Shown here: positions 10,103-12,982 of the stretch, piece by piece | Numbering within the stretch: position 1 is the first letter of the stretch | Layout: each line of letters begins with the position of its first letter | Virus record (IMG/VR): IMGVR_UViG_3300042880_000243 | Coordinates: 1-38,235 of that record | Strand: one strand, 5' to 3' | Length of the DNA: 38,235 nt | From: a virus | Notes under the pieces: model-generated | Told to the model about the DNA's origin: nothing | What the model saw: the letters and a program-made list of their open reading frames with translations, nothing else | The model's database searches: none | Translations under genes and position numbers: made by a program

Positions 10103-11401
10103 ATGAAGAGAGTAGCAAAGGATATGAACGTATACGATGCCGCCAACGAGCGCATCGACTTCATATTTAAGAACTTCAAGCGCATTTACATATCCTTCAG
10201 CGGAGGCAAGGATAGCGGTGTAATGCTTAACCTCGTGATTGACTACATGAGGAAGAACAACATCACCGAAAAGGTGGGACTGATGACGCTGGACAACGAA
10301 GCAAACTACGAACATTCGTTGACCTTCATGCACAGCATCATTCAAAAAAACTTGGACATCTTGGATGTTCATTGGTGCTGCCTACCTATTACGCTTCCAT
10401 GCACCGTAAGCCACTACGCTGTTGACTGGCAGTGTTGGGGTGAGAACGACAAGGACCGATGGATTCGCCCTATGTCTCAGGAGGAATACATCGTGAACCT
10501 GCATAACCACAAATATCCGTTCTTCCGTGAGAATATGAATTACGATGAGTTCTGGGATAGCTTCGGAGAGTGGTACGCACAAGGCGAAAGTTGTGCATGC
10601 CTTATCGGCATCCGAACAGCCGAAAGCCTCAACCGTTTCCGTGCCATCATGAACGAGCGGAAGGAAACGCTACACGGTAAAAACTGGACAAAGAAGAACG
10701 GTCAGTTTGTCTACAACTGCTATCCGATTTACGATTGGCGCACCGAAGACATTTGGACGGCCAACGCCAAGTTTGATTGGGAGTACAACGGGCTATATGA
10801 CGTGTTCTACAAAGCCGGGGTTCCCGTCTCAAAGATGCGAGTTGCATCACCATTCATGAGCGAAAGCAAGTCCAGCCTTGGCCTTTACAGGGTGATTGAC
10901 GGCCACACGTGGGCCAAGCTATGCGCCAGAGTTCAGGGGGCTAACTTTGTCGCTACCTACGGCAAGCAGCTTGGCTATCGCAGCTTTAAGCTACCTGCGA
11001 ACCATACATGGAAGTCCTTTGTGAAGTTCCTGTTAGATACGCTGCCTAAAGAAGTGGGGGAAAATTTTAAGAAGCGCTTCATCCAATCAATATCGTTCTG
11101 GGCACGGACGGGGCGCGGACTAAAAGCCGAGACTATTCAGGAGTTGCAGCAAGCCGGTATAAATCATACCATTAACGGCAAGACAGCCCATGGCAAAAAA
11201 ACGTTGGACCGTGTGCGTATCCATCGAGTGCCTGACCACTTGGACATGCTGAGTTGCCACAATGGAGAAGTGACATCTTGGAAACGGTTTGCCATCACCA
11301 TTTTAAAGAATGACCATACCTGCAAGTACCTTGGACTTGCGCCAACGAAAGAGCAGATGGAGCGTCAACGCAAAATCACCGCCAAATACCGGAAGCTATG
11401 A
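10103..11401 (+). CDS. IbrA-like PP-loop ATPase / PAPS-reductase family protein (DUF3440)
   Basis: A 432-residue protein with the PP-loop SFSGGKDSGVML at residues 31-42, which binds ATP and forms adenylated intermediates in the PAPS reductase/ATP pyrophosphatase superfamily. Further on it shows IGIRTAESLNR, PIYDWRTEDIW and a C-terminal ILKNDH...LGL motif typical of IbrA/DUF3440 proteins, of normal family length. IbrA proteins normally pair with an IbrB ParB-like protein, and one is found two genes downstream. The substrate of this family is not settled; sulfur or amide chemistry on a nucleic acid or small molecule is possible. ATG 10103 is preferred; ATG 10124 is possible. Confidence 0.85.
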   Translation: MKRVAKDMNVYDAANERIDFIFKNFKRIYISFSGGKDSGVMLNLVIDYMRKNNITEKVGLMTLDNEANYEHSLTFMHSIIQKNLDILDVHWCCLPITLPCTVSHYAVDWQCWGENDKDRWIRPMSQEEYIVNLHNHKYPFFRENMNYDEFWDSFGEWYAQGESCACLIGIRTAESLNRFRAIMNERKETLHGKNWTKKNGQFVYNCYPIYDWRTEDIWTANAKFDWEYNGLYDVFYKAGVPVSKMRVASPFMSESKSSLGLYRVIDGHTWAKLCARVQGANFVATYGKQLGYRSFKLPANHTWKSFVKFLLDTLPKEVGENFKKRFIQSISFWARTGRGLKAETIQELQQAGINHTINGKTAHGKKTLDRVRIHRVPDHLDMLSCHNGEVTSWKRFAITILKNDHTCKYLGLAPTKEQMERQRKITAKYRKL

Positions 11402-11829
11402 AGATTGTAAGGATTTTAGACCTCTTTGGAACGCCAAGGGAAGTTGATTGTCCCAAGGGTGGATTTAAAAGCATGAGGGCATTGTTAGAAAGCGATGGAA
11501 TGGGATTCTCCATGCACAAAACGTTGATACCAAAAGGTCCGCCACAGCACTGGCACTACACGCACCACCTTGAGGCGTGCTACTGCATTCAAGGCGGAGG
11601 CATCCTGACCAACCTGATTACTGGAGAGCGTCACTTGATCCGCGTAGATACTGTCTACGTATTGGACAATCATGACAATCACACCTTTCAAGCAACTACG
11701 GACACGGTGTTAATCTCCGTGTTCAACCCGCCCGTGTCCGGCACCGAAGTACACAACGAAGATGGATCATACACCCCACAAACCAAACAACATGAATACT
11801 CAGGAACAAATGACCTTTGGGAGCGATGA
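11398..11829 (+). CDS. Ectoine-synthase-like cupin (EctC family)
   Basis: A 143-residue single-domain cupin of normal EctC length. The EctC signatures DGMGFSMHKT, HHLEACYCIQG, VYVLDNHDNHTF and SVFNPPVSGTEVHNEDGSY occur in order. The iron-binding residues reported for EctC (Glu, Tyr, His at 28- and 8-residue spacing) are present as E59, Y87 and H95. EctC closes N-acetyl-diaminobutyrate into the osmolyte ectoine. No ectA or ectB genes are here, and the gene is ATGA-coupled to the IbrA-like gene, so its real substrate is probably different and tied to that cluster. Confidence 0.82.
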   Translation: MKIVRILDLFGTPREVDCPKGGFKSMRALLESDGMGFSMHKTLIPKGPPQHWHYTHHLEACYCIQGGGILTNLITGERHLIRVDTVYVLDNHDNHTFQATTDTVLISVFNPPVSGTEVHNEDGSYTPQTKQHEYSGTNDLWER

Positions 11830-12394
11830 GCAGCCCGCATTCGTATCGCCTGTCTATGGCGTAAAGCGGGTGCCATTAGAGAAGTTGAAGGCAAACGACT
11901 ATAACCCAAACTCCGTAGCGCCTCCCGAAATGGCTCTGCTTGAGACTTCCATTTGGGAGGATGGTTTCACGCAGCCCATCGTAACGTTCTACGACAAGGC
12001 CAACGATATGTACATCGTTGTCGATGGATTCCACCGATACACGGTTGGAAGGACATCGGAGCGCATCCGTGAACGTGAACGCGGAACGCTTCCTATCGTG
12101 GTAATCGACAAGGAGCTTGGCGACCGTATGGCATCAACCATCCGCCACAACCGAGCCAGAGGTTCGCACAACATTGAACTGATGAGCACTATCGTTTCGG
12201 AGTTGGTAGAGATGGGCAAGGGAGATCGTTGGATTTGCAATCACATTGGAATGTCTCCTGACGAACTTTTGAGGATGAAGCAGATTACAGGCGTTGCAGC
12301 CCTGTTCGCAAACAGGGACTTTTCAAATAGCTGGGATGCCGAAGAGCGTGAACTGACAGAGGATGAGATGGAGTTTGAAGCAGAGGCGGAATGA
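11792..12394 (+). CDS. IbrB-like ParB N-terminal domain protein
   Basis: A 200-residue protein. Residues 20-110 have the ParB/Srx fold signature: VPLEKLKANDYNPN, a DGFTQPIVTF segment and VVDGFHRYT, then a RHNRARGSH stretch. A helical region (about 125-175, SELVEMGKGDRWICNHIGMSPDEL) looks like the HTH of ParB proteins, and the tail is acidic. Some ParB-fold proteins use CTP or ATP. IbrB proteins are partners of IbrA-type PP-loop enzymes. It starts inside the cupin gene (38-base overlap), which keeps the three genes in one unit; an upstream in-frame start at 11762 is less likely. Confidence 0.82.
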   Translation: MNTQEQMTFGSDEQPAFVSPVYGVKRVPLEKLKANDYNPNSVAPPEMALLETSIWEDGFTQPIVTFYDKANDMYIVVDGFHRYTVGRTSERIRERERGTLPIVVIDKELGDRMASTIRHNRARGSHNIELMSTIVSELVEMGKGDRWICNHIGMSPDELLRMKQITGVAALFANRDFSNSWDAEERELTEDEMEFEAEAE

Positions 12395-12798
12395 AGCAGG
12401 TGTTTCATCCTTGGACAGAGTGGGAGTGCTATCATGCAGGAATGTATGATGGTAAGACCGCTCTGTCCATGGACGAGGCTAAAGCGGCATACGCAACTTT
12501 TCTTCGGGACATTCCAAGGTTCAACGCAGCGATGGAACGCGTGATAAACGAATGGCCGAAGTCCTGTGAACACTTTCTGACCAACCCGAACATCAACCGC
12601 ATTGCTTGGTTAGGTCAGGCTGCTATGTGTATTGACACAGGCGTTTCAAGGAAGCACAGGGCAGGGTTCATGTTAATGAGCCAAGATGAATGCAAAGCGG
12701 CAAACAAGGCCGCACATGATGTACTAACGAAATGGACGGATGCGCGACAGGATAGACAAATACATAAAAGAGTGGATGCTCCGGGGCTATTTGGATGA
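12391..12798 (+). CDS. Accessory protein of the IbrA/IbrB cluster
   Basis: A 135-residue helical protein starting MKQVFHPWTEWECYHAGMYD. Small proteins with this KQVFHP-W-E-Y start are known to me next to IbrA/IbrB-like genes in phages, and the ATGA coupling to the ParB gene fits. A conserved Trp/Tyr-rich N-terminus and a helical C-terminus are visible, but no catalytic motif. Function unknown. Confidence 0.65.
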   Translation: MKQVFHPWTEWECYHAGMYDGKTALSMDEAKAAYATFLRDIPRFNAAMERVINEWPKSCEHFLTNPNINRIAWLGQAAMCIDTGVSRKHRAGFMLMSQDECKAANKAAHDVLTKWTDARQDRQIHKRVDAPGLFG

Positions 12799-12982
12799 TA
12801 TTCCAGACGAAGTTCCTGATGCATTGATGGATGAAAGCCTTGCGCCATCGTACAAGGCCATAGCGATAGCAATACTGAGGAACGACCACCACATGACCGC
12901 ACTTGGATTTCAGGCACCAAGGTCAATTTGGTACGATGCTTTGAAAAGGATTGAGATTAACCAACGAAACAGTCAGCCATGA
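12740..12982 (+). CDS. Stand-alone IbrA C-terminal-like small protein
   Basis: An 80-residue protein starting in another frame 59 bases before the end of the previous gene. Its second half (SYKAIAIAILRNDHH then LGF and a WYDALKRIEI tail) resembles the C-terminal end of the IbrA-like protein (SWKRFAITILKNDHT then LGL). The middle RGYLDDIPDEVPDAL is also typical of the DUF3440 tail. It may supply a detachable subunit of the IbrA complex. ATGA-coupled to the next gene. Confidence 0.65.
   Translation: MRDRIDKYIKEWMLRGYLDDIPDEVPDALMDESLAPSYKAIAIAILRNDHHMTALGFQAPRSIWYDALKRIEINQRNSQP

Follow-up and report, generated by a model that had tools for sequence, protein, structure and literature searches.

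Gene content of the locus

The virus record IMGVR_UViG_3300042880_000243 (38,235 bases; the whole stretch of DNA analyzed, hereafter the window) carries terminase, portal, maturation protease and tape-measure genes and is siphophage-like. Between positions 10103 and 12982 it contains a cassette of five genes, all on the + strand, encoding (i) an IbrA-like PP-loop ATP pyrophosphatase, (ii) an EctC-like iron cupin, (iii) an IbrB-like ParB protein and (iv–v) two further proteins, here termed D and E. An earlier note on this DNA, made from the sequence alone, had proposed this gene set and its translational coupling. All five genes are indeed present, and start/stop overlaps run all along the cassette: ATGA overlaps were identified at positions 11398 (IbrA/EctC), 12391 (ParB/D) and 12979 (E/next gene), and the EctC/ParB and D/E pairs share longer overlaps.

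The IbrA-like protein (10103–11401; alternative ATG start at 10124) has an intact, conserved SGGKDS motif and two domains that score above their cut-offs, PF01507 (43 bits; cut-off 22.5) and the C-terminal DUF3440 (PF11922; 204 bits, cut-off 25), which places it in the IbrA/DUF3440 family, as had been claimed. It is 44% identical to IbrA of phage CHPC877. The N-terminal part of its AlphaFold model (pLDDT 87) resembles the PP-loop folds of CysH, FAD synthetase, TilS and TtuA in Foldseek comparisons. These matches, which also include NAD synthetase, are scattered, and the fold is not decisive for the chemistry of IbrA. Identity with the 3′-phosphoadenosine-5′-phosphosulfate (PAPS) reductase CysH was rejected: the TIGR00434 score is 16.2 bits against a cut-off of 165, and IbrA contains no ECG, i.e. 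no C-terminal ECG(L/I)H motif.

The second gene (11398–11829) encodes the cupin, a proposed ring-closing enzyme, which scores 144 bits with PF06339 (cut-off 27) and 145 bits with the NCBIfam ectoine synthase model NF009806 (cut-off 128). The third (11795–12394; the exact start is uncertain, either 11762 or 11795) encodes a ParB/Srx-fold protein, whose match to phrog_2159 (E 1e-77), next to IbrA, agrees with the IbrB-like assignment made previously; the Pfam ParB_N score is only 20 bits, under the cut-off, and a weak parB_part match covers residues 24–161. The protein contains the invariant blocks NDYNPNxVAPPEM, DGFHR and RMASTIRHNRARGSHN, and its ParB domain is probably followed by a helix-turn-helix (HTH).

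Proteins D and E had previously been called accessory. Protein D (12391–12798) is an all-helical partner (AlphaFold pLDDT 94) with no family match in library scans; its model has no PDB match (best E 0.67) and a single BFVD match that carries no name, so that its function could not be derived from the fold. For protein E (12740–12982; 80 residues) a more specific description is appropriate, since it is a stand-alone copy of the C-terminal DUF3440 tail of IbrA (PF11922 positions 136–176, E 7e-5).

Distribution and linkage of the cassette

The distribution of the cassette was examined in three scans, based on (i) the window IbrA (best 80 IMG/VR matches), (ii) EctC and (iii) the IbrA of phage Gaia; all used peptide patterns and returned at most 80 loci each, ranked by similarity to the query. 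Of the 80 top-ranked IMG/VR matches to the window IbrA, nearly all carry the remaining four genes. The independent EctC-anchored scan gave the same picture of co-occurrence, and the Gaia IbrA scan added further loci. Removal of duplicates and of four canonical plasmid EctCs left 160 distinct cassette EctCs; these counts include related phages, so that the 160 loci are not independent events. All five genes are present in 144 loci, 9 are truncated by a contig end, and the remaining 7 have IbrA, EctC and ParB without D and E.

Gene order takes six forms (114, 10, 7, 7, 5 and 1 loci), mostly circular permutations of each other, and simple inheritance of one operon therefore does not explain the persistence of the set. 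The earlier note had suggested looking for the same five-gene order elsewhere: the set recurs in many unrelated phages, but not in a single fixed order. It had also conceded that the link would probably be due to chance if the cupin accompanied IbrA/IbrB in no other genome; the 144 five-gene loci, together with the six orders, rule out chance neighbourhood. In 70 of the 160 loci EctC and ParB form a single open reading frame (ORF), e.g. gp104 of Mycobacterium phage Gaia, while in Pseudoalteromonas phage XCL1123 they are separate genes. As a supportive observation only, distance-correlation analysis of co-evolution gave r values of 0.22–0.56 that exceeded all 999 shuffles in nine of the ten gene pairs (E–ParB, r 0.01). 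It is almost certain that the five genes work together.

In the IbrA tree the EctC-linked proteins constitute one clade (SH-aLRT 100) with conserved cysteines and the clade-specific motifs YWCCLPITLPC and SWKRFAITILKNDHTCKY; both clade and motifs are distinct from those of ordinary IbrA/IbrB pairs. The sole locus of this clade without EctC, L037, has a 1-Cys-type peroxiredoxin gene (3868–4617) at the exact position of EctC, between IbrA and a ParB/sulfiredoxin-fold gene.

Several loci show variations in gene content. Small inserted genes (KITYPNGKIYIGQD-type) are present in L023 (7299–7613), L061 (1391–1663) and L004 (6890–7264); those of L023 and L004 match no Pfam family, and the equivalent gene of phage Nebkiss is annotated as a GIY-YIG-like endonuclease. 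In L203 an additional protein bearing a ParB-like DGFHR motif (5898–6962), without a match in Pfam, is encoded between IbrA and EctC, and a single ORF of L056 (7965–8858) fuses E and ParB.

Scans of IMG/VR anchored on EctC or using a canonical EctC profile yielded cassette loci only (the profile was used because a canonical single-sequence scan returned only two 33-residue fragments). A phage-labeled locus with EctC retaining Trp-21 beside EctB (L006, 1–1636; “Bacteriophage sp.” faecal scaffold MT835761) was excluded as a canonical ectoine locus; it is probably a contig of bacterial origin deposited under a phage label.

The cassette was compared with known systems sharing some of its genes. 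IbrA/IbrB pairs (E. coli ECOR-9 IbrAB, YbdN/YbdM and those of Streptococcus phage) contain the same ParB family in an adjacent gene, but EctC is missing from the pairs of bacteria and of Streptococcus phage. In the GTDB set, EctC was detected in only three of 49 ParB-anchored bacterial loci, IbrA and ParB usually occurring alone; two of the three EctC-bearing contigs carry phage replication genes, one of them additionally an endolysin. Of the 46 EctC-less bacterial IbrA/IbrB loci, no more than one or two have D and E. A further, very common viral module (L216–L294), found in Microcystis phage Mwe-JY13, Pseudomonas phage Amjad_SA and many IMG/VR contigs, has ParB, D and an E-like IbrA tail in this order; unlike the cassette it has no EctC, and its E-like part belongs to IbrA as the tail instead of forming a gene of its own. 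This ParB-D-IbrA arrangement without EctC was observed in 72 of 79 D-anchored loci (the best 79 of at least 592 matches). Homologs of D thus adjoin E or IbrA both in cassettes and in EctC-less viral modules. Since E matches IbrA tails of the D-linked viral lineage better (median 62.7 bits) than those of cassette IbrAs (42.8 bits), the D-E pair looks like a ParB-D-IbrA module that has lost its PP-loop domain and may now be served by the EctC-linked IbrA.

Gaia carries this cassette with an EctC-ParB fusion, and its genes have been annotated one by one (gp104 as “ectoine synthase/ParB multidomain protein”). DndABCDE and the Dpd 7-deazaguanine systems resemble the cassette in that a PP-loop protein (DndC) or a ParB-like ATPase (DpdB) acts as a partner in DNA modification, but EctC/EctD chemistry is not known there. 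A search of the PMC literature, which mostly leaves out subscription journals and preprints, found no published account of the five-gene unit.

EctC active site and putative ring-tailoring enzymes

The roles of EctC active-site residues were taken from PMC6344544. Residues E59, Y87 and H95 of the window cupin, which the earlier note had named as iron ligands, align with the ligands Glu-57, Tyr-84 and His-92 of the solved P. lautus EctC (5ONM). These ligands are kept in 160, 160 and 159 of the 160 cassette EctCs, respectively. The window cupin also retains S25, R27, T42, Y54 and F109, and the positions equivalent to S23, R25, T40 and Y52 are essentially invariant among cassette EctCs.

The cassette proteins differ from other EctCs at the position of Trp-21, which is F23 in the window. 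Tryptophan is absent here from all 160 cassette EctCs (F 104, G 50, M 2, C 2, L 1, T 1) but present in all six comparison EctCs, mostly plasmid-borne. The residue is invariant in 437 EctCs of ect clusters and retained in 145 orphan EctCs, and a W21A mutant has 9.7% of activity remaining (PMC6344544). N38 was considered as a second lost residue and dropped, since the six comparison EctCs also have H at this position. Cassette EctCs thus agree with EctCs and orphan EctCs in family score, in iron ligands and at most positions of the substrate site, but lack Trp-21 and EctA/EctB and have obligate IbrA/ParB partners. The term “orphan EctC”, used in the earlier note, is too loose for them, because they lack the Trp that published orphans keep. 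An orphan that retains Trp-21 was found on a plasmid of Rhizobium gallicum (L212, 1183–1896), where genes for an adenylate-forming enzyme and a phosphopantetheine-binding protein precede a solitary ectoine synthase; this arrangement suggests a carrier-protein-bound substrate.

No EctA or EctB was found in 30 viral records, including the window. Together with the loss of Trp-21, this argues against ordinary ectoine synthesis, and an ectoine osmolyte pathway was rejected. The pattern of kept and lost residues indicates that cassette EctCs probably still close a ring with the help of iron, on a substrate that is changed and probably bulkier. We consider it likely that EctC closes an ectoine-like ring.

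The strongest chemical clue is the presence of relatives of the ectoine hydroxylase EctD within the cassette, located between IbrA and EctC in L036 (7301–8182) and L156 (6138–6995) and after ParB in L093 (2263–3111). In these proteins the iron triad is retained, as is the conserved C-terminal Arg-Pro, and the 17-residue EctD signature FxWHSDFETWHxEDG(M/L)P is nearly intact: it is exact in L093, whereas its first F is replaced by W in L036 and L156, and an E by Q in the latter. The L036 protein scores 285 bits with TIGR02408, against an equivalog cut-off of 336.5. A profile scan of 2.9 million IMG/VR viral contigs, within the limits set by its peptide patterns, detected EctD relatives only in L036 and L156.

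Directly downstream of the EctD relative of L156, a single ORF (7001–8500) places a MycE/TylF-like O-methyltransferase domain between EctC and ParB. The methyltransferase domain matches demethylmacrocin O-methyltransferase and 3SSM (E 5e-30), which we take to be MycE. The occurrence of hydroxylation and methylation enzymes in the same cassette suggests that an ectoine-type ring is modified in successive steps. By analogy with hypermodification pathways, phages thus appear to add ring-tailoring enzymes stepwise.

The earlier note had proposed that the cupin performs a cyclization step within an IbrA/IbrB unit, on a product adenylated by the PP-loop enzyme, for example in a modification used against host defence. 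The 144 five-gene loci, the 70 EctC-ParB fusions and the EctD-type hydroxylases that join the cassette strongly support EctC as a working part of such a unit that contributes a cyclization step; any particular substrate, and a role in countering host defence, keep the standing of proposals.

Possible target and function of the cassette

In the model that we favor, the five gene products would form one enzyme complex. IbrA is predicted to spend ATP on activating the target, and IbrB, with its ParB/Srx fold and probable HTH, would bind a nucleotide and position the complex. D and E may act as a helper unit for the PP-loop partner. EctC would then join an amine and an amide-type carbonyl into an ectoine-type six-membered cyclic amidine, on a substrate presumably other than free N-gamma-acetyl-diaminobutyrate. 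Hydroxylation of this ring by an EctD-type dioxygenase would follow in some phages, and one phage may also O-methylate it with a MycE-like enzyme. As target, a phage DNA base or its nucleotide precursor is the most likely candidate, and the cassette may constitute a protective DNA hypermodification pathway.

Four observations favor phage DNA or a nucleotide. ParB, with its probable HTH, is fused to EctC in many loci. Neighbors of the cassette serve in replication and recombination (primases, helicases, helicase loaders, YqaJ and PD-(D/E)XK nucleases). A tyrosine integrase was found in only two of 29 records, a count limited, like the absences reported here, by the uncertain completeness of most viral contigs; the records therefore seem to derive mostly from lytic phages or fragments. 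Finally, DNA hypermodification pathways typically decorate their target in steps. In the window, the gene overlapping E encodes a PD-(D/E)XK exonuclease (12979–13533, + strand; phrog_298 E 1e-26, PF12705 26 bits), which is a replication/recombination neighbor outside the conserved cassette. A metallo-phosphoesterase gene (phrog_221 E 2e-34) is located at 4250–5281.

Several points weigh against this model. Replication genes commonly lie next to early phage genes, and their proximity is no proof of a DNA target; the HTH of ParB is drawn from weak profile matches, and the products are predicted from gene content. Thymidylate-synthase-type enzymes, common in known base hypermodification, were identified in only two of 30 records. 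IbrAB was reportedly first described as a co-activator of prophage gene expression. Moreover, EctC and EctD normally work on free small molecules (PMC6344544, PMC5924519). For the model as a whole, with DNA or a nucleotide as target, we put the chances at slightly below even. It is a still more tentative proposal that EctC closure, EctD hydroxylation and O-methylation on an IbrA/IbrB-activated DNA base or nucleotide represent a new class of phage nucleic-acid modification.

The action of EctC and EctD on free metabolites in ectoine producers, together with the retention of the iron triad and Arg-Pro in cassette EctD relatives, would also fit the synthesis of a free ectoine-like small molecule (a chaperone, signal or inhibitor of host defence) instead of modification of a polymer. 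This seems rather unlikely, given the lack of EctA/EctB in the 30 records, the fusion of EctC to a ParB with a probable HTH, the loss of Trp-21 from every cassette EctC and the absence of a recurring exporter or transporter among the flanking gene families examined.

Modification of tRNA or mRNA, with IbrA acting on an RNA base in the manner of TilS or TtuA and EctC tailoring the product, would be consistent with the resemblance of the IbrA model to TilS, TtuA and NcsA (E about 1e-4 to 2e-5). However, Foldseek ranks CysH and FAD synthetase first, so the fold matches do not single out RNA enzymes; furthermore, no RNA-binding domain was recognized and the ParB partners are of DNA type, which makes an RNA target improbable.

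GenBank notes repeat the description of IbrA/IbrB as a co-activator of prophage gene expression, and EctC might then be a sensor or a ligand-producing enzyme. Such a role is quite improbable, as the catalytic residues of the PP-loop, Fe-cupin and 2-oxoglutarate dioxygenase proteins are kept, which would be needless for a pure regulator, and integrases are rare in the records.

Equally little probability attaches to phosphorothioate-like sulfur chemistry of the DNA backbone, with IbrA acting like DndC. PADLOC models detected no defence system except for weak DndC/BrxP matches to IbrA (DndC, E 1e-8), and the cysteines of the EctC-linked IbrA clade are conserved; but TIGR03183 gives only 20.8 bits (E 1.5e-4) against a DndC cut-off of 290, on which DndC identity was rejected, and in the neighborhoods examined no cysteine desulfurase, DndA, DndD, DndE, TGT or DpdC-type gene was seen. 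Sulfur chemistry would also leave EctC and EctD unexplained.

Lastly, two of the genes can be read as auxiliary metabolic genes, with cysH serving sulfate assimilation and ectC the salt tolerance of the host. This reading follows current virome annotation and has been published (PMC13079714, which interprets viral ectoine synthase as salt protection, and PMC6145125), but is scarcely credible for genes that fail the CysH models, lack EctA/EctB and travel as a five-gene unit.

The cassette offers one testable answer to two questions: the role of IbrA/IbrB (DUF3440 + ParB) pairs and the products of EctCs outside ectoine operons. Two carriers are tractable in the laboratory, Gaia (in M. smegmatis mc2 155) and XCL1123 (in Pseudoalteromonas marina). 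The results also carry a warning for virome annotation: viral “ectoine synthase” and “cysH/PAPS reductase” genes, read as salt-tolerance or sulfur genes, often belong to this cassette or its relatives.

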